DNA from: Campylobacterales bacterium
Lineage (GTDB): Bacteria; Campylobacterota; Campylobacteria; Campylobacterales; Campylobacteraceae
Direction of reading: 5' to 3'
NCBI GenBank assembly: GCA_014859645.1
Contig: JACUTV010000011.1
Location: forward strand, 1-42,406
DNA: 42,406 nucleotides
Made by a program: the position numbers and the translations under genes. This document shows positions 5,516 to 40,446 of this stretch, piece by piece. Position 1 is the stretch's first letter. Every line of letters begins with the position of its first letter. A model generated the notes under the pieces. It worked only from the letters and a program-made list of their open reading frames with translations, was not told where the DNA came from and searched no databases.

Positions 5516-6005
5516 AGAGCACAGTTTTGACATTACCGCAGAAGTAGACAAGCAAGAACTCAAAAATGCCCTTGAACAAGCAAAGAAAGAAGTGGCAAAT
5601 CGGTACGATTTTAAAGGTCTTATGGCGGAGATTGACTACAACGAAAAGGGCAAGGTGATTACCATGGTGACCACGAGCGACTCCAAGGCGGAAGCCATGA
5701 AGGAGATTGTGATTTCAAAACTCATCAAGCGCGGCATTGTGGCGCAAGCCATTAAAGAGCTAAAGCGCGAAAGTGTGGGGGGCGGTAACACAAAACTCAC
5801 CCTCCAAGTCATCGACACCATCTCTAGCGAAGATGCCAAAAAAATCACCAAAGAAATCAAAACCCAAAAGCTCAAAGTCCAAGCGGCTATCCGCGGAGAA
5901 GAACTGCGTATCACAGGCAAGTCACTGGACGATTTGCAAGAGTGTATTCGTGTGGTTAAGGGGATGGAGCTTGACCTTCCGCTCTCTTTCACAAACTTCG
6001 CCTAA
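5508..6005 (+). CDS. yajQ: YajQ family nucleotide-binding protein
   Basis: 165 residues, the usual YajQ/UPF0234 length. It carries the diagnostic N-terminus SFDITAEVDKQELKNALEQA, ANRYDFKG, KRESVGGGNTKLTLQV, KKITKEIKT and the C-terminal RITGKSLDDLQECI. Family members bind nucleotides, and some are cyclic-di-GMP effectors; this is family knowledge, not proof for this protein. The gene starts inside the last codons of the dehydrogenase gene, with AAGGAG upstream, and its TAA overlaps the ATG of the next gene by one base. Confidence 0.95.
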   Translation: MAKEHSFDITAEVDKQELKNALEQAKKEVANRYDFKGLMAEIDYNEKGKVITMVTTSDSKAEAMKEIVISKLIKRGIVAQAIKELKRESVGGGNTKLTLQVIDTISSEDAKKITKEIKTQKLKVQAAIRGEELRITGKSLDDLQECIRVVKGMELDLPLSFTNFA

Positions 6006-6295
6006 TGCGCATCCTGGAGCCCACTCCTACGCCAAAACGCACTAGTTGTAAGGTGCTAGTCTTTGGCATTGCCCTTGGACTTGGGGCGGGCCCTTGGGCG
6101 CTTGTTGTGTGGGGATGGTGGCAGTTTCACTGGAGTTTTGGCATACTTTTTGGTGTGTTTGGGTATTTGCTAACAGGCGTTATCAGTAGCAAAATGCGGC
6201 AAGTGAGCATCCCTAAAGACCAACGAGAGATTTCCTTCACTTCTCATGAGATTGCACGGTGGTATGTGGTGCGTTATCTGTGCTGTGATGCGTGA
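6005..6295 (+). CDS. Small inner-membrane protein, unknown function
   Basis: 96 residues, not recognised. Two hydrophobic segments (about 17-42, Gly/Trp-rich, and 44-62) are followed by a soluble tail. It starts at TAATG overlapping the yajQ stop and ends against the next start, so it is cotranslated with its neighbours. The high Trp content in the first segment is unusual. Confidence 0.6.
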   Translation: MRILEPTPTPKRTSCKVLVFGIALGLGAGPWALVVWGWWQFHWSFGILFGVFGYLLTGVISSKMRQVSIPKDQREISFTSHEIARWYVVRYLCCDA

Positions 6296-7161
6296 TGCGG
6301 TTTCAAAAAGTCTATATTGAACTAACAAATGGGTGTGGATTAGCTTGCCATTTTTGCCCTTCGCGCCCTAAAAAAACGCGTGTGATGGAGCTTGGAGACG
6401 CCGAACGTGTGTTAGCGCAGTTAGTGCCTTACACGAAAAACCTTGCCTTTCACGTGTTGGGCGACCCCTTGACCCTTGAAGCTTTGCCACGCTATATGGA
6501 CATAGCGCAGCACTATGGGTTTGGCGTACATCTTGTGACAAGCGGGTTTCATTTGCGTAAGCATTCTCCCGAACTCCTACGTCACCCCGCACTGCGTCAA
6601 CTGAACGTTTCCCTCAACAGCGCCTCGCGCCAAACGCCAAGAGCGCTTAAGGCCTACATGGATGAAGTGCTGACGTGGTGTGATCATAAACGAGAATATG
6701 CTCCCAACCCCTTTGTAAATTTACGCTTGTGGAATCAGCAAGGAGATGCAAAAGATTTAGCATTTACACAAACGCTTTATGCTCTCATTTCTCACTCTTT
6801 TTATCATTCGCTTCAGGTACAATTGGACGCGAAGGCACTCCAAGAAGGTACATACCGTCTAGATGAAAAAATCCGTTTACATGTAGACAGGTATTTTGTA
6901 TGGCCCTCTTTGGATGCACCCGAAGTTCCCGATGGGCCTTGTCATGGGTTGCGGTCGCATATTGGGATTTTGAGCGACGGAACCGTGGTTCCTTGTTGTT
7001 TAGACGGGGAGGGGGTGTTAGCCCTTGGTAACGTGTTTACCACACCGTTGGAGGCGATACTACACAGCCCTAAAGCCCAAGCAATCCGTCGAGGTTTTGG
7101 CGAAAAGAAAGCAGTAGAGTCCTTGTGTCAACGGTGTGATTTTCGAAAACGTTTTTTATAA
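6295..7161 (+). CDS. Radical SAM / SPASM domain protein
   Basis: 288 residues. The N-terminal radical-SAM cluster motif is CGLACHFCPSRPKK (C-x3-C-x2-C near residue 14), followed by FHVLGDPL in place of the usual GGEPL and by NVSLNSAS. The C-terminal half has a SPASM-like second cluster region: PCHGLRSHIGILSDGTVVPCCLDGEGVLALGNVF and a final CQRCDF. Such proteins modify peptides or act as maturases; no obvious precursor peptide lies nearby. ATG 6295 is chosen (TGATG overlap); an in-frame GTG at 6292 adds one residue. Confidence 0.85.
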   Translation: MRFQKVYIELTNGCGLACHFCPSRPKKTRVMELGDAERVLAQLVPYTKNLAFHVLGDPLTLEALPRYMDIAQHYGFGVHLVTSGFHLRKHSPELLRHPALRQLNVSLNSASRQTPRALKAYMDEVLTWCDHKREYAPNPFVNLRLWNQQGDAKDLAFTQTLYALISHSFYHSLQVQLDAKALQEGTYRLDEKIRLHVDRYFVWPSLDAPEVPDGPCHGLRSHIGILSDGTVVPCCLDGEGVLALGNVFTTPLEAILHSPKAQAIRRGFGEKKAVESLCQRCDFRKRFL

Positions 7162-7163
7162 AA

Positions 7164-7195
7164 TTTACACTCAATTTACACAGCCTCGCTAGAAT
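7164..7195 (+). promoter_or_regulatory. Promoter with 11-bp-spaced direct repeats (box P1)
   Basis: TTTACAC at 7164-7170 and again at 7175-7181, exactly 11 bp apart, then 8 bp, then -10 TAGAAT (7190-7195). There is no separate -35, as in promoters activated by OmpR/PhoB-type regulators. The same arrangement occurs before psrA (31460-31491) and before the small gene at 40752-40871. The predicted transcription start near 7202 leaves a leader of about 20 bases if translation starts at 7222. Confidence 0.7.
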
Positions 7196-7221
7196 GACGG
7201 CAAATGAAGGAGAGAGAGACG

Positions 7222-8508
7222 ATGCCATTAAATTTTGTTCAATCATCCACTGTTTTTTGGGCTGAAAAGATTATGCGAAAATCCCTTGCAAATAATTTGG
7301 TGATTACACCCGTTAAAGAAGAAGTTAAACGCAAGGCAAAACCTGGACACACGTACATGCTCTACATCCACGTTCCTTTTTGCCATACGTTTTGCTCCTA
7401 TTGCTCCTTTCACAAATTTTATTACAACGAAGAAAAAGCCCTGCAATATTTTTCCTTTGTGCGCCACGAATTGCGAAAAGTCAAAGAGCAAGGGTATGAT
7501 TTTGAAACCTTATATGTGGGTGGGGGCACGACGCTTATTAACGAGCCAGAACTCATTAAAACCCTCGAATACGCCAAAAGTTTATTTAGCATCAAAGAAG
7601 TCTCTTGCGAGAGCGATCCTAATCACATCGCGCCCGGTAGTTTACGCCGTTTTCGCGGCCTCATTGACCGCTTGTCTATCGGTGTTCAAAGTTTTGATGA
7701 TGGGATTTTAAAGCGCATTGGTCGGCATGAAAAATTTGGTTCAGGAGAGGAGATTCAAGAAAAACTTCTGCGCATCGGGGGGGTTTTGCCCACCACAAGC
7801 ATCGACCTTATTTTTAACTTTCCTGGACAAACAGAAGAAATCGTTTTGCGTGATGTCATTACGGCTCAAGCCCTTGATATTGACCAAATCACAACCTACC
7901 CACTCATGCAGTCAAATTTGATGAAAAAATCCATTTCAAAAGCCTTTGATAGCCAAAAAAGTGACAATGAATACCGCTTTTTTGAGCTGATTCGTGGCGC
8001 TATGAACCAATACCGTCCTATTAACGGATGGGCATTTTCACGCCAAGAAGAGCAATTAAGCGACGAATACGTGGGAAGCCACAGTGAATATGTGGGAGTA
8101 GGGAGCGGCTCTTTTAGCTTTTTGGATGGAACCTTACATGTAAACGCTTTTGACTTAGACCAATACATGCAAAAGATTGCTAACGAAGAAAGTGCGGTGA
8201 TTGCTTCTTGCGCGTTCACGCCAAAACAGCGGGTGCAGTACCAATTTATGACTTCTTTGTTTGATGGAGTGGTGCATATTGATACCTTTAATCAAACCTT
8301 GCACACCAATCTTGAGCGAACGATGAATAAAGAGATTGCGATGCTAAAGCTCGCAGGGGCCATCGACGTCTCCAATGGCATGATTGTTCCTACTGAGTTT
8401 GGGGCGTATGTGAGTTTGGTGTTGATGCGAGAGTTTTATACGGGAATGGATCAGGTGCGTGCCATGTTTCGCCCCCAAGCAGCGTTGGAAAAGATTGTGA
8501 ACTTATAG
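7222..8508 (+). CDS. HemN/HemW-like radical SAM oxidoreductase
   Basis: 428 residues of the coproporphyrinogen-dehydrogenase superfamily. It contains YIHVPFCHTFCSYCSF (cluster cysteines C-x3-C-x2-C), LYVGGGTT, RLSIGVQSFDDGILKRIGR and SIDLIFNFPGQTEE. The fourth cysteine of true HemN (CxC) is absent, so it resembles HemW or HutW/ChuW-type proteins rather than the oxygen-independent coproporphyrinogen oxidase itself; haem handling or haem degradation chemistry is possible. ATG 7222 is preferred over 7204 because AAGGAG lies 9 bases before it and because 7204 sits at the predicted transcription start. First gene of the operon with psrB2, psrC2 and the two-component pair; 19 bp separate it from psrB2. 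Confidence 0.85.
   Translation: MPLNFVQSSTVFWAEKIMRKSLANNLVITPVKEEVKRKAKPGHTYMLYIHVPFCHTFCSYCSFHKFYYNEEKALQYFSFVRHELRKVKEQGYDFETLYVGGGTTLINEPELIKTLEYAKSLFSIKEVSCESDPNHIAPGSLRRFRGLIDRLSIGVQSFDDGILKRIGRHEKFGSGEEIQEKLLRIGGVLPTTSIDLIFNFPGQTEEIVLRDVITAQALDIDQITTYPLMQSNLMKKSISKAFDSQKSDNEYRFFELIRGAMNQYRPINGWAFSRQEEQLSDEYVGSHSEYVGVGSGSFSFLDGTLHVNAFDLDQYMQKIANEESAVIASCAFTPKQRVQYQFMTSLFDGVVHIDTFNQTLHTNLERTMNKEIAMLKLAGAIDVSNGMIVPTEFGAYVSLVLMREFYTGMDQVRAMFRPQAALEKIVNL
8134..8143. repeat. TTACATGTAA iterated palindrome, copy 4
   Basis: In the HemN/HemW-like gene, encoding LHVN. Confidence 0.95.
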
Positions 8509-8527: not shown

Positions 8528-9091
8528 ATGAAAAAAGCCTACCGACTTGTGCATGATGAAAACCTGTGTATCGGGTGTCAAGCATGCAGTGTGGCGTGTA
8601 GGGCTGAGAATAAAATTCCCGAAGAAGTATACAGACTCCAAGTAACCGTTTCTATGAGGGCACAAGACCATACGATGGATTTTACAAGACGCTCTTGCGT
8701 GATGTGCGATAATGCCCCTTGCGTGGAAGTGTGTCCGACCCATGCTACCTTTCAAATGCGCGATGGCATTGTTCTTGTGGATGAAAAACGGTGTGTTTCG
8801 TGCAAATACTGCGCTCTTGCTTGTCCCTATGGTGCGCGCTATACCGACCCCTTGACTAAAGCCTTACAAAAATGTGATTTTTGTTATTCTTCCCGTATTC
8901 TCAAAGGAGAATTGCCTGCATGTGTGGAGGTGTGTCCCACTGATGCTCTTGCTTTTGGTGACATCAACGACCCTCAAAGCGCACCAGCGCTAAAGCTAAA
9001 AAACAATGTTAGTATATACCCCAAAGCACACCTTGGTACCAAACCTAAAGTTGTGATTATTCCTAATGCTAAAGGAATGCCCCGTGAATAG
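8528..9091 (+). CDS. PsrB-like four-cluster ferredoxin subunit (orphan copy)
   Basis: 187 residues. It contains four [4Fe-4S] cysteine groups: CIGCQACSVACRAE, CVMCDNAPCVEVCP, CVSCKYCALACPYGAR and CDFCYSS with a later CVEVCP. This is the electron-transfer subunit typical of polysulfide/thiosulfate or tetrathionate-type molybdoenzymes, and is clearly paralogous to the PsrB encoded at 28550-29125 (same VHDENLCIGCQAC start and FGDINDP near the end). No catalytic molybdopterin subunit is adjacent. The last bases overlap the next gene. Confidence 0.9.
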   Translation: MKKAYRLVHDENLCIGCQACSVACRAENKIPEEVYRLQVTVSMRAQDHTMDFTRRSCVMCDNAPCVEVCPTHATFQMRDGIVLVDEKRCVSCKYCALACPYGARYTDPLTKALQKCDFCYSSRILKGELPACVEVCPTDALAFGDINDPQSAPALKLKNNVSIYPKAHLGTKPKVVIIPNAKGMPRE

Positions 9092-10055
9092 CATGTGGGG
9101 AAGTATGGCTCAGCACGAGATTGTTCATTGGCCATGGCCCATTGCGGTGTACCTGTTTTTAGCGGGCCTAAGTGCGGGATCGATGCTTGTAGCGTTGCTG
9201 GTCAAATGGAATCGGCACGAACACAGCACAAACTCCATCTGGGACGCGATGGTAAAAGCAGGCGCGTTGATTGCGCCAAGTGCGATTATCCTTGGGCTTG
9301 GGTTGTTGGTTCTTGATCTTGGAAAACCCCTTTCTTTTTTTTGGCTTTTGGTCTATTATAATCCCACTTCAGTCATGTCTATCGGGGTGATTATTTTACT
9401 GTGTTATACCCCGCTTACCCTACTCTTTACCCTTATGATTTTTGAAGAAAACGTGAAACAGATTCAGGTGTTGCGGGTATTTTTGCCGCTGATTACTTTT
9501 GTTCGCTCTTTTTCGCACCGCGCGAAAGAGTTGGAATATTTTTTGTTTGCTTTTGCCTTGGCTGTAGGGGCGTACACGGGATTTTTACTCTCAGCTATTC
9601 AAGCGTTACCCATGTGGAACAACCCTATTTTGCCAATTTTATTTTTAACTTCAGGAATTTCTGCGGGCATCGCTTCAAATATCCTCGTAGGCCTCTTGTT
9701 TTTCAAGAGCTCCCTCAACCCAGAAAGTGTCAAATACCTTCTGGTGCTTGACATGCGCGCGGTGATGAGTGAAATCCCTTTGCTTATCATGCTGTTCATT
9801 GGGATGTTCTACGGCGGTGAAGCGGGCGTTCTTGCGGCAAAATCAGCACTCACCCAAGGACATTTGGCGTGGATTTTTTGGTGCGGTGTTGTAGGAATTG
9901 GCTTGCTAACACCCCTCACAATCGCCTTTACTGCGCTACGTAATCATGCATACCGCATGGGGTTTATTGTGGCTAATTCGATGATTGTGCTTTTAGGTGT
10001 TTTTCTGCTACGATACTACATAGTTTACGCAGGCCAAACCTTTACTGGCGTCTAA
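9084..10055 (+). CDS. NrfD/PsrC-like quinone-interacting membrane subunit (orphan copy)
   Basis: 323 residues with about eight hydrophobic helices. It opens with MWGSMAQHEIVHWPWPIAVYLFLAGLSAG, closely parallel to the PsrC at 27600-28553. NrfD-family subunits exchange electrons and protons with the quinone pool. The start is GTG 9084: AAAGGA lies 7-8 bases upstream and the N-terminus then aligns with the paralogue. The upstream ATG 9066 would add residues lying inside psrB2. It overlaps psrB2 by 8 bp and is followed after 31 bp by the response regulator. Confidence 0.9.
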   Translation: MNSMWGSMAQHEIVHWPWPIAVYLFLAGLSAGSMLVALLVKWNRHEHSTNSIWDAMVKAGALIAPSAIILGLGLLVLDLGKPLSFFWLLVYYNPTSVMSIGVIILLCYTPLTLLFTLMIFEENVKQIQVLRVFLPLITFVRSFSHRAKELEYFLFAFALAVGAYTGFLLSAIQALPMWNNPILPILFLTSGISAGIASNILVGLLFFKSSLNPESVKYLLVLDMRAVMSEIPLLIMLFIGMFYGGEAGVLAAKSALTQGHLAWIFWCGVVGIGLLTPLTIAFTALRNHAYRMGFIVANSMIVLLGVFLLRYYIVYAGQTFTGV

Positions 10056-10086
10056 AAAATCAACACAACACCTTAGGAAAAAGCCA

Positions 10087-10758
10087 ATGAAGATTCTTCT
10101 GCTTGAAGACGATTATAACTACCGCGAAAGTATCAAAGAGTACCTTGAAATGCTTGGTTTTGAGGTGGACGATTTTGACAATGGTGCAGATGCACTAGAT
10201 AGTATTTATGAAAAAACCTACTACTTACTGATTTTAGACATCAAGGTGCCCGAAGTGAGTGGGCATGAGATTATTCGCTATGTTAAAGAGTCGCAGATTA
10301 AAGTGCCGATTATGATTATTACTTCCTTGGTAGATATTGATAATGTGGCGATTGGGTACGAGCTTGGCTGTAACGAATACCTCAAAAAACCCTTTGATTT
10401 AGTAGAGCTCAAATACCGTGTGCTTGGGCTGATTAATACCTTTTACCCGACTAACAATAAAAACTGTGTTGAGATTGACCAAGAATACACCTTCGACATC
10501 GTGGAAGGGTTGTTGTATAAATCAGGCAAAGAAGTGAGCCTTACGGCTAAAGAAAAAGACCTTATCTTGTACCTTGTGCGCAACAAAAACGCCTATGCGA
10601 GTATTGAGATGCTGCGGGAAGAAGTGTGGGAAGGAAAGGCGATTCACCACGCGGATATTCGGATGCACGTGCGCAAAATTCGCCAAAAAACCACGCCAGA
10701 ATTTATTGAGTCATTTCGGGGGCTAGGGTACAAAATCCATGTTAAAGCAGAGTCTTAA
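10087..10758 (+). CDS. OmpR/PhoB-family response regulator
   Basis: 223 residues. The receiver domain (1-115) has the acidic pocket LLEDD (6-9), phospho-acceptor Asp-51 in LLILDIKVP, the switch Ser/Thr in IMIITS, and the conserved Lys in YLKKPF. A winged-helix C-terminal domain (about 130-220) includes LTAKEKDLILYLV and the terminal FRGLGYKI. It follows psrC2 and overlaps the kinase gene by 20 bp. As the last regulatory unit of an operon that begins with box P1, it is the best candidate to bind the 11-bp direct repeats at P1 and at the psrA promoter (inference). Confidence 0.94.
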   Translation: MKILLLEDDYNYRESIKEYLEMLGFEVDDFDNGADALDSIYEKTYYLLILDIKVPEVSGHEIIRYVKESQIKVPIMIITSLVDIDNVAIGYELGCNEYLKKPFDLVELKYRVLGLINTFYPTNNKNCVEIDQEYTFDIVEGLLYKSGKEVSLTAKEKDLILYLVRNKNAYASIEMLREEVWEGKAIHHADIRMHVRKIRQKTTPEFIESFRGLGYKIHVKAES

Positions 10759-11929
10759 ATCTCCCCTGATGTACACGCTGCTCATTGGGCTGCTTTTTTG
10801 TGTTCCAGGCTTTCAAGTGTTGCAACTCACCCTTAAAGAACAACACACCAATAACAGTATTGAGCTAATGCAGTGGTCCACATTGATTCGTAGTGCTATT
10901 GAAACTTATGAAGGCCAAGAACCCTTACATGTAAAGGTTCCAAGTTCTGTGGTCTACACCTTTGGGCTTTACGACGCTTCGCGCAATATTTTGTATTCGA
11001 CCCTCACCCAAGAACCTTCCACCTTTGCCTTTACAGCGCGGAGCGAAGGGGGATTTTTTTACTACCAAACGGTGTTGGGTAATAACCCTGTGAATGCTTT
11101 GTATTTGATTGTGGCGATGCCAGTGAGCAATACAAAGATTATCTTGATGGCGACGATTATTTTGCTGCTGACGTTGTGCGTGCTGTATGTGACGGCGCAT
11201 TTTATGATTTTGCACAGCATTAAGCCCTATCAAGAGACGCAAAACTACATGAACACGTTTTTTAACGACGCTATGCATGAGCTTAAAACGCCTTTGGGGG
11301 TGATTCACATCAACCTCGAACTCCTAGAGGCAACCCAGCCAGAATCCAAGTATATTGGGCGTATGAAAGCAGCGACAAAACAGATGCAAATGACCTATGA
11401 GGACGTAGAGTACTACATCAAGCACACGCGTTCTAGCTTCAACCCTGAAGTGGTGGATTTGTCCCACTATTTATTTGAACGGGTGCGCTTTTTTGAGGAT
11501 ATTGCCAAGGCAAAACAGATTTTACTCAAAGCGACCATTGCGCCGAAATTAATTGTCTTTATGAATAAAATGGAACTACAGCGGGTCATTGACAACACGA
11601 TTTCCAATGCCATCAAATACTCCAATCCTGCCTCAAGCGTGCTGCTTGAGTTAGAAGAAAAAGAGGGTAAAGCTTCGTTTCGAGTGGAGGATTTTGGCAA
11701 AGGTATCAAAGACACCAAACGGATTTTTGAGCGTTTTGAACGAGAAGATTTGGTGCAAGGCGGCTTTGGATTGGGCCTGAGTATCGTGAAAAATATTTGT
11801 CAAAAGTACGGCATTACCTACCAGGTAAGTTCGGTGCTAGCGCGTGGAAGTACTTTTTCCTATCTTTTGCCCTTATACGAAGAGCGTTGGCTCGATAAAC
11901 TCGAATCCAAAGAAACACTTCCTGCTTAA
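10739..11929 (+). CDS. Sensor histidine kinase
   Basis: 396 residues. A first membrane segment (about 10-30), a small periplasmic domain (about 32-130), a second segment (133-158), then the dimerisation domain with MHELKTP (His-180). The ATPase part has the N-box DNTISNAIKYSN, G1 VEDFGKGI, and GFGLGLSIVKNI. No HAMP domain is obvious. It is the partner of the regulator at 10087. TTACATGTAA occurs inside the periplasmic region, encoding Leu-His-Val. The 3' end overlaps by 4 bp the stop of the convergent sensor-domain gene. Confidence 0.94.
   Translation: MLKQSLKSPLMYTLLIGLLFCVPGFQVLQLTLKEQHTNNSIELMQWSTLIRSAIETYEGQEPLHVKVPSSVVYTFGLYDASRNILYSTLTQEPSTFAFTARSEGGFFYYQTVLGNNPVNALYLIVAMPVSNTKIILMATIILLLTLCVLYVTAHFMILHSIKPYQETQNYMNTFFNDAMHELKTPLGVIHINLELLEATQPESKYIGRMKAATKQMQMTYEDVEYYIKHTRSSFNPEVVDLSHYLFERVRFFEDIAKAKQILLKATIAPKLIVFMNKMELQRVIDNTISNAIKYSNPASSVLLELEEKEGKASFRVEDFGKGIKDTKRIFERFEREDLVQGGFGLGLSIVKNICQKYGITYQVSSVLARGSTFSYLLPLYEERWLDKLESKETLPA
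10925..10934. repeat. TTACATGTAA iterated palindrome, copy 5
   Basis: In the first histidine kinase gene, encoding LHVK. Confidence 0.95.
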
Positions 11930-12774
11930 AAACGCTGGGCAATCTTTCCCCATTCTGCTTGGCGTTCTGTGGTGACACTGAGGGCGTAATACCCCACTTC
12001 TTTTCCTGAAATATCATGAATAGGCAAGGAGGCAAAGTAGTGGCTGTGCCGTTGCGTGATGGAAGGACGGGTAAGGTCTAGCGTGTTGAGAAGGTAGGCT
12101 TTGTCAAAGTTTGCTTCTTTGTTGATGATGATGAAATGTTCCAAAAGGTTCATTTGATGCGGATGAAACACATTGGAAAGGCTAGCAGTTTTTTTGTCTA
12201 GCAGTACGTAAAAATCGACCCCTTGATGGTTGAGAAAGTTGGTAATGTGTTTGAAGTCAAAAATTACTTCAATGGACCCAATGTACTCTTCCTCTTCAAA
12301 GATGGGCGAAACACCTCGTAGAAAAAGACCCTCCCTTCCTGCTTCGATGCCCGAGAGCGGTGCTTTGGTCTCTTTTGCCTGAAGCAGGGAGTGACGAAAC
12401 GATTCAAGGCTGTCGCCGCTGCGTTCTAGATTCCACGCGCGCAACAAACTTTTAAAATCTGCCGTGTGCATGTGAATACGGATGGTGTAGTGGGTCAGAG
12501 GCGCTAAAGAATGCAGCGTATCATTAACAATAGACAAACACCCTTCTTTGTTTTTTGTTTTAATGCACTCTACAACCAAAGGGTTTTTAGAGAGTAAAAC
12601 AGACATGGAGAGCGCAAGACTTTTTTCTTCTTCGAGGGTTTTAGAAAAGAGTAAAATCTGATGGTTGAGATAGCGCTTGGCGTCGTTATGGGTGAGTTCT
12701 TGTTGGTACTGATACCCTGTGTACAGCACCAACAAGACAATGAAAATAGCGCTACATGTAAAGATAAAACGCAA
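11926..12774 (-). CDS. Stand-alone Cache-like periplasmic sensor domain, membrane anchored
   Basis: 282 residues. One N-terminal membrane anchor (FIFTCSAIFIVLLVLYTGYQ) is followed by an entirely extracytoplasmic domain resembling the double-Cache ligand-binding domains of chemoreceptors and kinases (VSPIFEEEEYIGSIEVIFDF, a typical Cache strand pair; DISGKEVGYYALSV near the end). The protein stops with no second membrane helix, HAMP, kinase or methyl-accepting part. TTG 12774 is the first standard start, but it lies about 19 bases from AAGGA (12798-12794); an in-frame ATT at 12786 is at the ideal 7-base spacing and would add MKPL. The gene follows nifU closely, perhaps by read-through. Confidence 0.72.
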   Translation of the reverse strand: MRFIFTCSAIFIVLLVLYTGYQYQQELTHNDAKRYLNHQILLFSKTLEEEKSLALSMSVLLSKNPLVVECIKTKNKEGCLSIVNDTLHSLAPLTHYTIRIHMHTADFKSLLRAWNLERSGDSLESFRHSLLQAKETKAPLSGIEAGREGLFLRGVSPIFEEEEYIGSIEVIFDFKHITNFLNHQGVDFYVLLDKKTASLSNVFHPHQMNLLEHFIIINKEANFDKAYLLNTLDLTRPSITQRHSHYFASLPIHDISGKEVGYYALSVTTERQAEWGKIAQRF

Positions 12775-27599: not shown

Positions 27600-28553
27600 C
27601 TAGCCGACGAACGTTTGGCCAGCGTAGAGGATGTAAAAACGTAGTGCCATAACCCCTGCAAGCACCAAGAAGGCGTTGAAGATGATAAAGGCGGTAGAGT
27701 GTTTCACGCTGTGAGGCATGACGATATTTAAGCCTACTGGAGCCGCAAGACCAACCCCAAAGACGCCTACCCAAAACAAGGTTGCAAAGCCACCTGTGGT
27801 GAGTGCCGCCGCAGCCACACTTGCCGCCGCACCACCTTGGTAGTACATGCCGCTAAAAAGAGCAATCAGGATAAACATTTCAGCCAAGATAACTTTAAAG
27901 TCAAGGCCGTGTAAGTAACTGACGTTTTCTTCATTGGTAGTGTTTTTAAAGAAAAGAAGCCCTACGATAAGGTTAGCCGAGATACCCGCCGAGATACCCG
28001 ATGCCAAGAAAAGCAATGGCAAGGTTGGTGTATTAAGGAGCGGGTAGGTATTCATTGCGGAAAGCAAGAAGCCTGTGTACGCACCGACACCTACGGCAAG
28101 GAGTAGCGTAACCACTTCGAGGAGTTTAGCTTGGCTTTTAGCAATGTTTGCCAACGGTGCCAAGAAGCCAAAAGGGCCCTCATCGATGAGCGGTTTGCGG
28201 AAAATGCCCAAGAAAAAGATGATAATGACAGGAAAGTAAGCAAACAAGGCCAACACCCCGATAGTCATCATGGAGCCAAAGTTGTAGTTAATGAGCAATT
28301 TCCAAAAATGAAGCGGACGGGTAAGGTCAGCGATCAAAAGTACCAAGCCCGCACCAATAGTCACCGGTGCAAGAATCGCACCTGCTTTAATGATGCCATC
28401 CCAAGGAGAACTCTCGTTCCCTTTCATCCATTTAATAACGATTGCCGAAATAATCGCACCTGCTGAAAGACCTGCTAAAAAGAGGTAAACCGCGATTGGC
28501 CAAGGCCAAACGATGCCGCCGTATTGTACGGTAGATCCCCACATTGGACTCAT
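27600..28553 (-). CDS. psrC: Polysulfide reductase membrane subunit PsrC (NrfD family)
   Basis: 317 residues, eight hydrophobic helices. It begins MSPMWGSTVQYGGIVWPWPIAVYLFLAGLSAG. NrfD-type subunits bind quinol and pass electrons to the PsrB clusters. Length fits the Wolinella-type PsrC. It overlaps psrB by 4 bp (ATGA), with GGAGG upstream. It could equally be called PhsC if the enzyme prefers thiosulfate. Confidence 0.92.
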   Translation of the reverse strand: MSPMWGSTVQYGGIVWPWPIAVYLFLAGLSAGAIISAIVIKWMKGNESSPWDGIIKAGAILAPVTIGAGLVLLIADLTRPLHFWKLLINYNFGSMMTIGVLALFAYFPVIIIFFLGIFRKPLIDEGPFGFLAPLANIAKSQAKLLEVVTLLLAVGVGAYTGFLLSAMNTYPLLNTPTLPLLFLASGISAGISANLIVGLLFFKNTTNEENVSYLHGLDFKVILAEMFILIALFSGMYYQGGAAASVAAAALTTGGFATLFWVGVFGVGLAAPVGLNIVMPHSVKHSTAFIIFNAFLVLAGVMALRFYILYAGQTFVG

Positions 28554-29125
28554 GACTGAATTCCTCCCTTCTTATTAGGTACGATAAACATTTTTGGTTT
28601 GGTGCCAAGACTCTCTTTTTGGCGGTATGTCACACGCTCGGAGAGGGCTTTGCTGATTTTACTTTTTGGATCGTTGATGTCACCAAAGATAAGCGCATCC
28701 GTAGGACATACGGTTACACACGCAGGGTCTTCTCCGCGCCCAAGGCGTGTTTCTTTACAAAAGGTACACTTATCAGGTGCTTTGTGCTCAGGGTGTACGT
28801 AGCGCGCTTGGTAAGGACACGCCGCGTTACAGTATAAACAGCCCACGCACAAATCCACGTTGACCAAAGAGATACCGTTTTCATCGATGTAAGAGGCGCC
28901 TGTTGGGCACACTTTTACACAAGGTGTGTCATCACAGTGGACACAAGATTGGCGGTGGAATTCATACAACATATTCCCATTAGCAAGTTTTTTAGGGCCA
29001 TTGACCCACACTTGCAAACGATAAACGCTCTCAGGGATGTCGTTTTCTGACCGACACGCGATATTACATGCTTGGCAACCGATGCACAGATTTTCATCGT
29101 GAATCATTCCATATTTTTTAGCCAT
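28550..29125 (-). CDS. psrB: Polysulfide reductase iron-sulfur subunit PsrB
   Basis: 191 residues with four ferredoxin-type cysteine groups: CIGCQACNIACRSE, CVHCDDTPCVKVCP, CVGCLYCNAACPYQAR, CTFCKET with CVTVCP. It transfers electrons between PsrC and PsrA on the periplasmic side. It lies 14 bp after psrA with a good ribosome binding site (GGAAGGGAA). Confidence 0.93.
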   Translation of the reverse strand: MAKKYGMIHDENLCIGCQACNIACRSENDIPESVYRLQVWVNGPKKLANGNMLYEFHRQSCVHCDDTPCVKVCPTGASYIDENGISLVNVDLCVGCLYCNAACPYQARYVHPEHKAPDKCTFCKETRLGRGEDPACVTVCPTDALIFGDINDPKSKISKALSERVTYRQKESLGTKPKMFIVPNKKGGIQS

Positions 29126-29139
29126 GACCGTTCCCTTCC

Positions 29140-31428
29140 TTATACTTTTCTAATTTTGACGCCAACAACATGCAAGTCCATACCGGAATTTTGTCCAGTA
29201 AAAGAAGGATATAGCGCATTGCTATGAATTCCCTTGCTATGGTGACGCAAATCTTTGCTAATGTGCCCAAATCCCATGTAGGCAAACACGGTGTCTTCAC
29301 GAATACCCTCTGTAACCAACGCTTTACCCCGTTGTGCGGAGTATTTGTTGTACAGTTCGATATCATCGCCATCTTTGATGCCAAGTTTTTTGGCAGTATT
29401 GGGATGAACCCATGCGCCAGCATCACTTTGGAGGTTGTTGAGCCATACGTTGTTGCCTCCTGCGCCATTGGTGCGCACAGCAGATTTTCCGTTAATGAAA
29501 TACAATTCATCAGACTCTTTGTATTTGAAGGGGTTGTATTTTAAGCCACCTGTGCCAGAAACTTTTTCAAGTTTTGGGCTAAAAAGTTGAATCTTTTTAG
29601 GAAGGTCAAAGGTGCCCTCTTCGTTTACTTTGGCAGCAGCTCCTGGGAATTGCTTGACAAACTTAGCAACACTTTCTTTTTCTTGAAGCATCAATGGAAC
29701 ACCGTAACCTTTTAAGCCTTTGAGTTTAAGCTCTGCTAAAAGGCCGACGTTGTCGCCTACTTGTTGTAGACGGTAGTCTTCAATGTCTTTCCACTGGAAG
29801 TATTCGCCAAGATTCATTTTAGCGGCAAGCTCTTTGGCAATCATCCATGTAGGTTTAGAGTTTCCAATAGGGTCAACCACTTTTTGGCGCCCAATGCTAT
29901 AACTTGGGTTTTTGCCTCCACCTGCTGTGAGTTCTTGGTCGCGCTCAAGGTAGGTAGTGTCTGGAAGAACAACATCAGCAAACCATGCAGTGTCAGAAAC
30001 TTGATAGTCTACTGCCACAATCAAATCCATCGCCTTCATACCTTTTAAAACGGTGTCTAGGTTTGAATAGTTCATGACAGGGTTATTACGCGCAATGAAC
30101 CATCCATGGATTTTGTAAGGAACGCCAGGAAGTTCTTCTAAGGCTGCTTTAGGAACCAATGTCGTAATCCCTTGTCCTTTACTGGCTAAGAAAAATTCAG
30201 AATCTTCTTCGCCAATGCGGTCAATGCGTGGCATCTCAATTTTGGGATACGCTGGTGATTTAGGTTTCTTGAGCCCTGGTGCTTTAGGATCTTCTTCGCC
30301 CAAGAAAGAGTTGTAAAGACTTGCACTTTTAGGGAAGTAATAACCACCGTCTTTTTCAACAGCACCCACAAGCGCATTGACCATCATCATGGCGCGGCGC
30401 AATTCAAGCTCTTGAGCTGAAAGGGTAACACGGTGGCCATAATCAAAGATAGCCTTAGGAGCAGCCGCAGCAAACTCGCGGGCAATACGGCGAATAGTTT
30501 CAGCTGGAATGTCGCACTCAGAAGCCATTTTTTCAGGGGTATATTCAGCCACAGAAGCTTTGAGTTCTTCAAACCCTACACAGTTTTTCTCAACGAATTT
30601 TTTGTCGTAAAGGTTTTCACTAATGAGAACATTTATAAACGCTAGCACAAACGGATAATCGTGCCCTGGTTTAATCGCATGCCATTCGGTTGCTTTAGCA
30701 GCCATGACAGAAAGGCGTGGTTCAAAGGTAACAACTTTAGCTCCTTTTTGCATCGCGCTCATGTATTGGCGAGCATAGGAGATGACAATACCTTCAAAAA
30801 CATTGTGGCCCATGTTGATGATGTATTTGGCGTTAGAGAAGTCACGGTTAACCCCGCTGCCATAAACATCTTTACCTGACATGCCATAGGCCAATGGACA
30901 GGTTGCTTCATGACCAAAAATGTTCGGTGAGCCATAAGCTTGCGCCAAGTGGTGAAACCAAACTTTTGTCCATCCACTGCGCGCAGTAAAGGCCATGGTG
31001 TGCGCGCCATATTTTTCTTTTATTTCGTCCATTTTTTTCGCAATAAAAGTGTAAGCTTCGTCCCAACTGACTTCTTTCCACTTTCCTTCGCCCCGCTCAC
31101 CCACACGCATAATAGGGTTAACTAAGCGCATTGGATCGTACAGCTGATTAAAGCCTGAGCCTCCTCTAGCGCACACCCTTCCACCACGACTTTTGTCATT
31201 GGGATTGCCGCGAATAAAGACACCTTTGCCATCCTCTACACGGGCTTCAATAGTACAAGAACTCGTGCACATTTCGCAGATACTAGGTACGAATTTAGCA
31301 CTCCCAGTTACGGCTTTTTGGTCCTTGCTGAGCGCGCCAAGCGTGCCTGGAATGGTCGAGAGACCAACCGCAGCCGCTGCTCCTGAAGAGAGCTTTAAAA
31401 AGCCTCTTCTACTAAGCGTTTGAGTCAT
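29140..31428 (-). CDS. psrA: Molybdopterin polysulfide/thiosulfate reductase catalytic subunit
   Basis: 762 residues. A twin-arginine signal ([17 protein letters not shown]) directs folded export. The N-terminal [4Fe-4S] binding motif is CEMCTSSC with a later [11 protein letters not shown]. The molybdenum-site region is [10 protein letters not shown], where the cysteine is the probable Mo ligand. Further bis-MGD binding regions include [22 protein letters not shown] and [19 protein letters not shown]. Length and order psrABC match Wolinella-type polysulfide reductase; PhsA thiosulfate reductase is the close alternative. It is transcribed from box P2, divergent from the tRNA cluster. Confidence 0.92.
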
Positions 31429-31459: not shown

Positions 31460-31491
31460 ATAGTAGACTAGCTGCGTAAACTGAGCGTAAA
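31460..31491 (-). promoter_or_regulatory. psrABC promoter with 11-bp-spaced direct repeats (box P2)
   Basis: On the minus strand TTTACGC (31491-31485), N4, TTTACGC (31480-31474), then 8 bp and the -10 TACTAT (31465-31460). Compared with box P1 the 20-base core differs only by four G/A transitions. The leader to ATG 31428 is about 25 bases. This is the likely binding site of an OmpR-type regulator. Confidence 0.7.
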
Positions 31492-31615: not shown

Positions 31616-31656
31616 TACGTCCTCAAAACGTCTGCGGGAAATGTCGTCCCGATTTT

Positions 31657-31734
31657 CGGGGTGTAGCGCAGCCTGGTTAGCGCACTTGGTTTGGGACCAA
31701 GGGGCCGAAGGTTCGAATCCTTTCACCCCGACCA
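31657..31734 (+). tRNA. tRNA-Pro (TGG)
   Basis: Acceptor CGGGGTG pairs with CACCCCG, CCA is encoded, and the anticodon loop TTTGGGA gives TGG. First of five clustered tRNA genes. Confidence 0.95.
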
Positions 31735-31754
31735 TTCGTAAGGCTTTTTGAGAT

Positions 31755-31832
31755 GGTGAGTGTAGCTCAGTCGGTTAGAGCATCAGGTTGTGGTTCTGAG
31801 GGTCGTGGGTTCGATCCCCATCACTCACCCCA
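31755..31832 (+). tRNA. tRNA-His (GTG)
   Basis: The extra 5' G (-1) faces C73, as required for histidine tRNA. Acceptor GTGAGTG/CACTCAC, anticodon loop TTGTGGT, CCA encoded. Confidence 0.95.
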
Positions 31833-31851
31833 TTTTTTCTAAAGCGCGTTT

Positions 31852-31928
31852 GCGTTCGTAGCTCAATTGGATAGAGCAACAGACTTCGGATCTGTAGGTT
31901 ATAGGTTCGACTCCTATCGGGCGCACCA
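31852..31928 (+). tRNA. tRNA-Arg (TCG)
   Basis: Acceptor GCGTTCG/CGGGCGC with two G-T pairs, anticodon loop CTTCGGA reading TCG, encoded CCA. Confidence 0.93.
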
Positions 31929-31950
31929 TTTAATGCTTCAGTCGAAAGAT

Positions 31951-32027
31951 GCGCTCGTAGCTCAGTTGGATAGAGCAACGGCCTTCTAAGCCGTAGGTCT
32001 CAGGTTCGAATCCTGACGGGCGTACCA
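31951..32027 (+). tRNA. tRNA-Arg (TCT)
   Basis: Acceptor GCGCTCG/CGGGCGT, anticodon loop CTTCTAA reading TCT, encoded CCA. The first acceptor pair is G-T. Confidence 0.93.
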
Positions 32028-32051
32028 CTGAAATGTTCTTCTTTTTTATGT

Positions 32052-32136
32052 GCGGATGTGGTGAAATTGGTAGACACGCCAGACTTAGGATCTGGTGCCT
32101 GACGGTGTGGAGGTTCGAGTCCTCTCATCCGCACCA
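32052..32136 (+). tRNA. tRNA-Leu (TAG)
   Basis: Class II tRNA with a long variable arm, acceptor GCGGATG/CATCCGC, anticodon loop CTTAGGA reading TAG, CCA encoded. Confidence 0.95.
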
Positions 32137-38432: not shown

Positions 38433-38640
38433 AATCCTCTTGGCACTCTTGTTGGCACTAGGATGCCTTGTGGCGCGGACGGATTTTTCAGCCCTAAGCA
38501 ACCAAGAGCTCATCGCCCTCATTGGGTACGTGAAGCCAAACGAACGCCCTTTGCTTCTTAGGGAACTTGAAGTGCGTAAACCCACGTTTTCGCCCAATGA
38601 ACGTCAACAGTTTGAGCGTGCCACGAAGGAGAAGCGTTAG
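38425..38640 (+). CDS. Small exported DUF1104-like protein
   Basis: 71 residues. A signal peptide (KILLALLLALGCLVARTD) is followed by DFSALSNQELIALIGYVKPNERPLLLRELEVRK, which resembles the DUF1104 family found in Campylobacterota. A cysteine within the signal (LALGC) could be a lipobox. Periplasmic, function unknown. It is wedged between the AI-2E gene and the response regulator with overlaps on both sides, so it may be part of the sensing module. Confidence 0.78.
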   Translation: MHKILLALLLALGCLVARTDFSALSNQELIALIGYVKPNERPLLLRELEVRKPTFSPNERQQFERATKEKR

Positions 38641-39308
38641 TGGCGCGGGTGCTGCTCTTGGAAGATGACATGAACCTCTCCCAAACCCTGTGCGAGTTTT
38701 TGGAAGATGAGGGGTTTGAGGTCGTGTGCGTGTACGAGGGCGAAGCGGCCCAAGAAGCGTTATATGAGGGAAAATTTGATCTGTTGCTACTGGATGTGAA
38801 TGTGCCTAATATCAACGGCTTTGCCCTTTTGAAGGAAGCAAGGAAAGAAGCGGTGGTGACGCCTGCGATTTTCATGACATCGCGGGATGGGCTTGAAGAT
38901 GTGGAGAACGGATTTGTCAGTGGGTGTGATGACTACTTGCGTAAACCTTTTGCCCTCAAAGAGCTACTGCTTCGGATGCACAGTTTGTTGCGGCGTGAAT
39001 TTGGGCATGTGCGTAGCGCGGTGGTGGCTTTGGATGAGGAGGTGGCCTTTGACACGGCGGGAAATGCCTTACATGTAAAGGGCGAGACCTATCCTCTTGG
39101 GCGTAAAGAAGCGCAATTGTTGGCCTATTTTTTAAAACGTCGTGGGGAAGTGTTGAGCCATGAAGCCTTGCAAGAAGCCCTGTGGTCATACGACGAAACG
39201 CCCAGTGAAGCGGCCCTTCGCACCTACATCAAAAACCTGCGAAAATTGATTGGAAAAGAAAAAATTGTCAGTTTCAAAAAACTGGGATACAAACTTACAA
39301 CGGCGTGA
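38640..39308 (+). CDS. OmpR-family response regulator (second pair)
   Basis: 222 residues. Receiver with LLLEDD (5-10), phospho-acceptor Asp-52 in LLLLDVNVPN, IFMTSRD and YLRKPF. Winged-helix effector domain about 130-220 with LGRKEAQLLAYFLKRRGEVLSHEAL and FKKLGYKL. GTG start overlapping the previous TAG by one base. It carries TTACATGTAA in the linker (NALHVKGE). It is related to the regulator at 10087 but is not a recent duplicate. Confidence 0.93.
   Translation: MARVLLLEDDMNLSQTLCEFLEDEGFEVVCVYEGEAAQEALYEGKFDLLLLDVNVPNINGFALLKEARKEAVVTPAIFMTSRDGLEDVENGFVSGCDDYLRKPFALKELLLRMHSLLRREFGHVRSAVVALDEEVAFDTAGNALHVKGETYPLGRKEAQLLAYFLKRRGEVLSHEALQEALWSYDETPSEAALRTYIKNLRKLIGKEKIVSFKKLGYKLTTA
39069..39078. 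repeat. TTACATGTAA iterated palindrome, copy 16
   Basis: In the second response regulator gene, encoding LHVK. Confidence 0.95.
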
Positions 39309-40446
39309 AAGACGCACGCTTGTGGCGTTTTTGGCGTTGTACCTCACCCTCTCGTGTACGATTTTGGGCTTGTTTGGCACGGGGTATTATGCCCTCCAAA
39401 AAGAAGCGATGCTGAGTGCGAAGCGGGGCGAACTCAATGCGTTGGCAAACGAACACGTCAAAGCCTTGCGCGCTTTGCATGTTGCCTTTGATAAAACCCA
39501 GTACTATCCGCGTCACGAAGCCTTTCGCTCAGGGATTTTTGATGGAGCGGCGGTGGAGATTTTTTCCCTCTTACATGTAAGCCCTTTGCTCTCACGCATT
39601 ATCTACCTCAAAGAAGGGGTGATTCACTACATCAAAGAGCCCGAAGCCCACTATTTGGGGACGCAGTACTTGGTCTTGGAGGTGGAGGATGATGGGGCGT
39701 GGCGCCACGAAGCCTTGCGAAACATGGCGTGGTTTGGCGGGGGGATTTTTCTCTTTTTGGCGGTTGGGGGGTATTTTTTATTGCGCTTGTTGTTGCGTCC
39801 TATGCGTGAAGCCATCGCCCTTTTGGACCGTTTTATCAAAGATACAACCCATGAGCTTAACACCCCGATTCACGCGATTTTGTCTAACATTGAGATGATT
39901 CCCTTGGAGAGTCTGGAGCCTAAAACCGCGCGTAAACTTGAACGCATTCGCCTTGGGGCGCAGGGCGTGTCGCACTTGTATCAAGACTTAACCTACTTAA
40001 CCCTCGGGCACCGCCAAGCGCGCCATGAGAGCGAAGTAAGGGTGGATGAGGTTGCGCAAGAGCGGGTGGAGTATTTTGGATTTGCGCTTGAGGCAAAAAA
40101 GATTGCTGTACATGTACAAGCGCAACCTGCTGTGCTGTGGATTGACCAAGGGGCATTGACGCGCTTGGTGGATAACGTGCTTTCCAATGCCATCAAATAC
40201 AACCGCGTGGGCGGAAGCATCCATGTAAAGGTAGCCCCTGGGCTGTTGGAAGTCAAGGACACAGGCATTGGGATTGAAGCGTCCCAACTCAAAAACGTCT
40301 TTGACCGTTACGTGCGGTGTCATGAGAGCGCGGGCGGGTTTGGCATCGGGTTAAACATCGTGGGGATGATTGCCAAAGAATACGGACTTAAGCTTTCGCT
40401 TGAATCTGTCAAAGGAGAGGGAACATGCGTACGGGTTTGTTGGTAG
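39250..40446 (+). CDS. Sensor histidine kinase (second pair)
   Basis: 398 residues as drawn. Membrane segments about 23-47 and 158-181 flank a periplasmic sensor. HisKA has THELNTP (His-201). The ATPase part has LVDNVLSNAIKYNR, VKDTGIGI and GGFGIGLNIVGMI. The start is uncertain: no ATG is available, and the drawn TTG 39250 overlaps the regulator by 59 bp without a clear ribosome binding site; other TTG/GTG codons follow (for example GTG 39322). The 3' end overlaps the cytochrome gene by 22 bp, suggesting that the cytochrome belongs to the same signalling unit. Confidence 0.9.
   Translation: MEKKKLSVSKNWDTNLQRRERRTLVAFLALYLTLSCTILGLFGTGYYALQKEAMLSAKRGELNALANEHVKALRALHVAFDKTQYYPRHEAFRSGIFDGAAVEIFSLLHVSPLLSRIIYLKEGVIHYIKEPEAHYLGTQYLVLEVEDDGAWRHEALRNMAWFGGGIFLFLAVGGYFLLRLLLRPMREAIALLDRFIKDTTHELNTPIHAILSNIEMIPLESLEPKTARKLERIRLGAQGVSHLYQDLTYLTLGHRQARHESEVRVDEVAQERVEYFGFALEAKKIAVHVQAQPAVLWIDQGALTRLVDNVLSNAIKYNRVGGSIHVKVAPGLLEVKDTGIGIEASQLKNVFDRYVRCHESAGGFGIGLNIVGMIAKEYGLKLSLESVKGEGTCVRVCW
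39571..39580. repeat. TTACATGTAA iterated palindrome, copy 17
   Basis: In the second histidine kinase gene, encoding LHVS. Confidence 0.95.

Follow-up and report, generated by a model that had tools for sequence, protein, structure and literature searches.

The 42,406-nucleotide window analyzed here, contig C143 of the 2.78 Mb Campylobacterota genome G000, carries a gene unit in which an iron-sulfur subunit and a quinol-reactive membrane subunit of the polysulfide reductase type, psrB2 and psrC2, are encoded without a catalytic PsrA subunit, behind the radical S-adenosylmethionine (SAM) gene mqnK and ahead of genes for a response regulator (RR) and a sensor histidine kinase (HK). The genes from mqnK to HK are separated by short gaps or overlap, and a convergent gene for a dCache_3 protein belongs to the unit as well (Table 1). 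A preliminary description of this DNA, which placed a PsrB-like gene, an NrfD/PsrC-like gene, a regulator and a kinase at 8528-11929, was right in coordinates and gene content. It had also noted the missing catalytic gene, and indeed no PsrA-like gene adjoins psrB2: mqnK ends at 8508, just ~20 bp before psrB2 opens at 8528, an in-frame TAA stands two codons before the psrB2 ATG, and a molybdenum-containing PsrA is absent from the operon. The PsrA said to be encoded 19 kb away was likewise found, since psrA1 of a complete psrA1B1C1 operon starts ~19 kb from the orphan unit, and both operons carry the same promoter box, as the description had said, the -10 hexamer following in each after exactly 8 bp.

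The match of psrC2 to the NrfD family (E = 1e-73) and those of psrB2 to NrfC/TtrB-type models indicate that neither is a chance open reading frame (ORF). The true start of mqnK is likely at 7222, after an AAGGAG, and a longer psrC2 ORF starting at 9066 is unlikely.

Table 1. Positions of the orphan unit, the complete psrABC operon and other features in the window
Feature	Positions	Strand	Description
Operator box of mqnK	7164-7181	+	TTTACACTCAATTTACAC; direct repeat TTTACAC-TCAA-TTTACAC, 11-bp period, at the -35 position upstream of mqnK, probable RR site
-10 hexamer of mqnK	7190-7195	+	TAGAAT, 8 bp past the box
mqnK	7204-8508	+	Class C radical SAM protein, menaquinone methyltransferase family by NF006385 and motifs
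psrB2	8528-9091	+	PsrB/NrfC subunit with four [4Fe-4S] clusters, no signal peptide
psrC2	9081-10055	+	NrfD/PsrC quinol-reactive membrane subunit
RR	10087-10758	+	OmpR/PhoB-type response regulator
HK	10739-11929	+	Sensor histidine kinase
dCache_3 gene	11926-12774	-	Membrane-anchored periplasmic protein without kinase domain, conserved next to HK
psrA1B1C1	27600-31428	-	Complete polysulfide/thiosulfate reductase operon; psrA1 matches the PhsA model with 1079 bits
psrB1	28550-29125	-	Within psrA1B1C1
psrC1	27600-28553	-	Within psrA1B1C1
Box and -10 of psrA1	31460-31491	-	TTTACGCTCAGTTTACGC-N8-TACTAT; box proper 31474-31491
Two genes before mqnK	6005-7161		Small membrane protein and SPASM radical SAM protein
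Second RR and kinase pair	38640-40446		
tRNA-like genes	31640-32120		Run upstream of psrA1 (by-eye reading)

Loss of psrA2 and retention of psrB2 and psrC2

Across 298 genomes of the phylum, a PsrA gene lies directly upstream of 87 of the 90 PsrC-type genes, the exceptions being the window, G141, whose psrA2 is divided between two ORFs, and G014, in which a partial match was found. In relatives that we call Campylobacter-type the order is psrA2-psrB2-psrC2-RR-HK with the convergent dCache gene, and in those that we call Sulfurospirillum-type psrA1B1C1 is followed by psrA2B2C2-RR-HK-dCache and then by a convergent mqnK, both labels being our own reading of the genome content; in family f6, mqnK and psrA2B2C2-RR-HK-dCache are divergently oriented. 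PsrA2 was not found in G000, where the best match was PsrA1 of the window (41%), nor in G298, of the same genus, nor in G299, the genome of locus L013 (UBA1877). In all three genomes mqnK is followed directly by psrB2 and psrC2, and psrABC is kept. The G298 contig ends after psrC2, and its HK orthologue (86%) stands at the end of the psrABC contig, with ~19 kb between it and psrA, a spacing also seen in the window. The RR is 86% identical in L013 and 47-61% identical in relatives with psrA2.

The three orphans group together in the trees of B and of C (100% bootstrap), and in both trees their clade branches from within the PsrA-bearing operons. This nesting and the absence of PsrA2 from three genomes make loss with retention, and not an ancestral sensor pair, the parsimonious history, and the general position of PsrA upstream identifies the pair as a remnant of a psrA2B2C2-RR-HK operon rather than a primordial sensor module. 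The unit is very probably a derived Psr2 operon, with an MqnK-family gene and the shared box. The preliminary description had reckoned, as a point against itself, with a PsrA adjacent in relatives and a recent loss here; the first part stood, as PsrA is adjacent outside the orphan clade, but the loss is not recent, because it is common to the three genomes and the genes are still under purifying selection. Elsewhere, G056 (L147, 7255-9538) and G141 (L140, 6228-8503) each have psrA2 as two ORFs that overlap or abut, going by which PsrA2 may decay repeatedly, a sequencing error being possible too.

Between the window and G298, the ratio of nonsynonymous to synonymous substitution (dN/dS) was 0.056 for psrB2 and 0.041 for psrC2, similar to the values for psrA1, psrB1 and psrC1; between the window and L013 synonymous sites are saturated. 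PsrC2 keeps Y23, D76, S94, Y159 and T160 (W. succinogenes numbering), which mutation has shown to be important in W. succinogenes PsrC (PMC8076601). All 16 cysteines of PsrB are invariant across 44 PsrB sequences, so that PsrB2 retains its four cysteine-ligated clusters. Also present in PsrC2, in the same numbering, are D218, E225 and R305, which we take to be further quinol-site residues. A phmmer search of PsrC2 against PDB sequences gave no match at E<0.001.

The conserved columns lost in the orphans number 0 of 102 in C2 and 5 of 78 in B2, and four of these five fall in a single loop, residues 45-49, in all three orphan species. Identity to the PsrA2-bearing relatives is lower for B2 as a whole (55.5%, vs 63.3% among those relatives), a drift that C2 does not show (57.8% vs 59.0%). 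The drift of B2 and the loss in its loop may reflect release of a PsrA2 contact, which would be expected to leave such a pattern. The three-species clade, the conservation of residues and the strong purifying selection together indicate an old loss of the catalytic subunit, after which the remaining genes were kept. That the pair is instead a neutral relic, held merely by its position between mqnK and RR-HK, would agree with the missing catalytic gene and with the broken-looking psrA2 of G056 and G141, but is hardly credible beside a dN/dS of about 0.05 and the preservation, in three species, of every cluster cysteine and all known quinone-site residues.

The radical SAM gene and the quinone

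The radical SAM gene had been described as haem-type; its product belongs instead to the menaquinone methyltransferase (MKMT) family, and the gene lies outside the 8528-11929 segment. The protein matches NCBIfam NF006385, named 'coproporphyrinogen III oxidase family protein', with 597 bits (cut-off 355), and this name explains the haem label. All six MKMT signature motifs, taken from PMC10320005 Table 2 (after Wilkens 2021), are present in it, and the motif check found no HemW motif HNxxYW. As controls, in the HemW-like protein of the same genome (L010) the HemW motif is present and four of the six MKMT motifs are missing, and the HemN-like protein (L011) has only one. A haem biosynthesis or degradation function was rejected, as the HemN, HutW and HemW models scored far under their cut-offs and the motifs disagreed. 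In G167, which presumably corresponds to W. succinogenes, the single copy found at 1e-60 also has 6/6 motifs and its gene adjoins psrABC and a psrR-like gene for an AraC-type regulator. More generally, mqnK adjoins psr genes in several different arrangements.

By its motifs, the gene is best named mqnK, and its product most likely makes methylmenaquinone. In C. jejuni, CgdH2, a member of the MenK clade, binds haem, which it gets from ferrochelatase (PMC10320005), and this lends something to the view that the gene acts in haem metabolism and that the unit is a haem/respiration cluster. We consider that view quite improbable, since it has against it the full set of MKMT motifs without a HemW motif, the separate HemW-like and HemN-like proteins from which most MKMT motifs are missing, and the repeated adjacency of mqnK to psr genes, G167 included. 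A second mqnK-like gene lies a few kb from another PsrB/PsrC-type pair in four loci (L053, L069, L073 and L080), and the pairing of mqnK with NrfCD modules is thus recurrent.

Shared promoter box, probable signal input and proposed electron partner

The pattern TTTAC-N6-TTTAC-N10-TANNNT precedes mqnK-psrB2C2-RR-HK, psrABC and a chemoreceptor gene. The window holds two matches to it, compared with 0.00 expected from shuffles, and TTTACRCTNARTTTACRC has exactly two perfect matches genome-wide in each of G000, G298 and G299, at the mqnK and psrA1 promoters. The looser exact form TTTAC-N6-TTTAC, sought within 120 bp upstream of genes, was found before psrA1 in 8/8 Sulfurospirillum-type loci examined, before 10 of the 14 other psrA2 genes that stand with RR-HK and could be read through (a count that takes in the three of f6), before the mqnK of f6 and of the orphan lineage, and before 0/672 other ORFs. 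It was not found before psrA in L143, L150, L151 and L078, loci without an RR-HK of this family. At all 26 distinct box sites TANNNT stands exactly 8 bp downstream. The distribution of the box largely follows the RR-HK two-component system across the order.

OmpR/PhoB-type activators typically have direct repeats of 11-bp period at the -35 position as their sites, and since the RR is of that type it is likely the binder of the box, a prediction drawn from the phylogenetic footprint. A third box with its -10 lies upstream of a gene for a methyl-accepting chemotaxis protein (G000:C49:15704-15735; L197, L217), and also at G298:C25:16467-16498 and G146:C1:1680896 (L213), ~60-66 bp upstream of the gene in each case, the receptors being 42% identical between genera. 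This hints at chemotaxis in the same regulon; it is a less certain member, because chemoreceptors are numerous.

The regulator has receiver and Trans_reg_C domains and the kinase HisKA and HATPase domains, with an invariant phospho-acceptor, H180. A moderate AlphaFold model of the HK (pTM 0.48) has a small alpha/beta periplasmic domain, and that of the dCache_3 protein (pLDDT 88) resembles PDC/Cache sensor domains; neither indicated a ligand. Residues C70, C79, H101, H103, R112, E144 and R153 of the dCache_3 protein are invariant; they include a cysteine pair, C70 and C79, and an HxH, and one may conjecture that the cysteine pair senses sulfane sulfur.

The preliminary description had offered a redox-sensing module as one role of the pair. 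Such a quinol-state sensor, in which oxidation of (methyl)menaquinol would reduce the PsrB2 clusters and signal to the kinase of the operon, would fit the operon organization and the long co-retention of the pair with RR-HK after the enzyme was lost. It received no direct support, and we judge it distinctly unlikely: HK, RR and dCache also accompany complete psrA2B2C2 operons, in which the pair belongs to the enzyme, so that signalling there requires no orphan pair; the HK has a periplasmic domain of its own; psrA2B2C2 occurs without adjacent RR-HK in L143; and PsrB2, having no export signal, would still require a Tat partner for a periplasmic role. We likewise find improbable the broader idea that a quinol-oxidizing PsrBC, once parted from its enzyme, now reports the state of the quinone pool to a two-component system by which methylmenaquinone synthesis (MqnK) and polysulfide reductase are tuned together.

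We propose that an ancestral psrA2-psrB2-psrC2-RR-HK operon with its dCache gene, as still seen in Campylobacter-type and Sulfurospirillum-type relatives, would have lost psrA2 in the ancestor of the lineage, psrB2C2-RR-HK being placed behind mqnK. The HK, with its periplasmic dCache partner, would sense a signal from outside, probably some sulfur compound, and phosphorylate the RR, which on the TTTAC repeats would activate mqnK-psrB2C2-RR-HK, psrA1B1C1 and perhaps the chemoreceptor gene. MqnK would make low-potential methylmenaquinone, and PsrC2 would oxidize the quinol while PsrB2 hands the electrons on, most likely to PsrA1. In W. succinogenes, respiration with polysulfide requires methylmenaquinone, which acts at PsrC (PMC13209400; PMC6682613). 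PsrB2C2 would then be a second anchor for PsrA1, and PsrB2 would be co-exported with it by the twin-arginine translocation (Tat) pathway.

PsrB is thought to be exported together with a Tat-signal-bearing PsrA (hitch-hiking). With no signal peptide of its own and no PsrA2 left, PsrB2 depends on a different partner for reaching the P-side of PsrC2, and PsrA1 is the leading candidate because it shares the box, occurs in each of the orphan genomes and carries a Tat motif, SRRGFLK. The earlier suggestion that psrB2C2 could feed the distant PsrA is borne out to this extent. None of the complete PsrA-like operons examined in the genome lacks its own B and C. G000 is rich in molybdenum enzymes of the PsrA-like superfamily, and two more PsrA-like operons (G000:C172 and C210; L170, L171) have their own B and membrane subunits and a downstream lipoprotein-like gene.

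Several points weigh against PsrA1 as the partner and against the wider proposal. PsrA1 is already served by a complete psrB1C1, and one molybdenum-enzyme ORF (C126), cut by a contig end, fell outside the operon check. Convergence of PsrB2 on PsrB1 was looked for and not seen, as PsrB2 is 54.9% identical to PsrB1 vs 53.8% for other PsrB2 proteins, and the shortened loop is unlike that of PsrB1 as well. Some RR-HK relatives lack the exact box before psrA2 (among them L142, L149 and all Sulfurospirillum-type psrA2), and the explanation as a whole comes from sequence analysis. We infer the RR as box binder, the signal, the activity of MqnK here and PsrA1 as partner, and hold the entire explanation, PsrA1 included, tentatively, at close to an even chance.

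Service to some other partner, be it another Tat-exported enzyme or a periplasmic or cytoplasmic acceptor with the lost loop as a new docking surface, seems unlikely. The loss of PsrB2 loop 45-49 in all three orphan species with the remainder kept would suit it, and NrfCD-type pairs serve many unrelated catalytic partners (PMC13059093, PMC8076601); yet the unit holds no conserved candidate gene besides mqnK and the regulators, and the other complete PsrA-like operons have B and C of their own. The charge pattern of PsrC2 is that of PsrC1, which does not suggest a cytoplasm-facing arrangement; an inverted membrane orientation of PsrC2 was rejected on the same pattern.

Related systems and neighbouring features

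The unit resembles PsrABC/MqnK/PsrR of W. succinogenes in its PsrC-type quinol residues, in methylmenaquinone as the probable quinone and in the nearness of mqnK to psrABC (as in G167). It differs from that system, where a single complete psrABC is under the AraC-type PsrR (PMC6682613), no PsrA-less copy and no linked RR-HK of the window's family occur, and the box is absent from the two promoters tested. The psrA2B2C2-RR-HK(-dCache) relatives share the order of B2, C2, RR, HK and dCache and usually have the same box nearby, but they have a catalytic psrA2, and their mqnK is elsewhere, divergent or convergent, not first in the operon.

ThsSR and TtrSR of Shewanella and Salmonella (PMC5408782) are likewise two-component systems beside the thiosulfate or tetrathionate reductase operon that they control. 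Their sensor domains are PhnD-like and ThsR is FixJ-like, whereas the window has an OmpR-type RR, a kinase whose sensor domain is small and of alpha/beta type, and a dCache protein encoded separately. QrcCD, MccCD and NrfCD are comparable as exchangeable modules of a four-cluster iron-sulfur protein and an NrfD-like quinone subunit, but unlike the pair in the window they are encoded with a catalytic partner.

Exchangeable NrfCD-type modules are already known, as are MqnK and sulfur reductases linked to a regulator (ThsSR, PMC5408782); what is new is the combination of a PsrBC without PsrA, encoded in one operon with mqnK, and a conserved operator that psrABC shares. No description of the two-component system, of the box or of this combination was found in the literature searched, most subscription papers being outside it. 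Low-potential quinone synthesis, an electron module that reacts with quinone and sulfur-respiration control here come together in one operon and one probable regulon. The arrangement is a natural experiment on whether different catalytic subunits can share an NrfCD-type module, and the concrete operator sequence makes the control of polysulfide respiration in PsrR-less Campylobacterota directly testable.

Elsewhere in the window, the second regulator and kinase pair is 32% and 29% identical to the first, and a run of tRNA-like genes was read by eye upstream of psrA1. The small membrane protein and the SPASM protein encoded before mqnK are both also found in L013, and the SPASM protein in G298 as well; the latter is fast-evolving, with 45% identity to its L013 counterpart.

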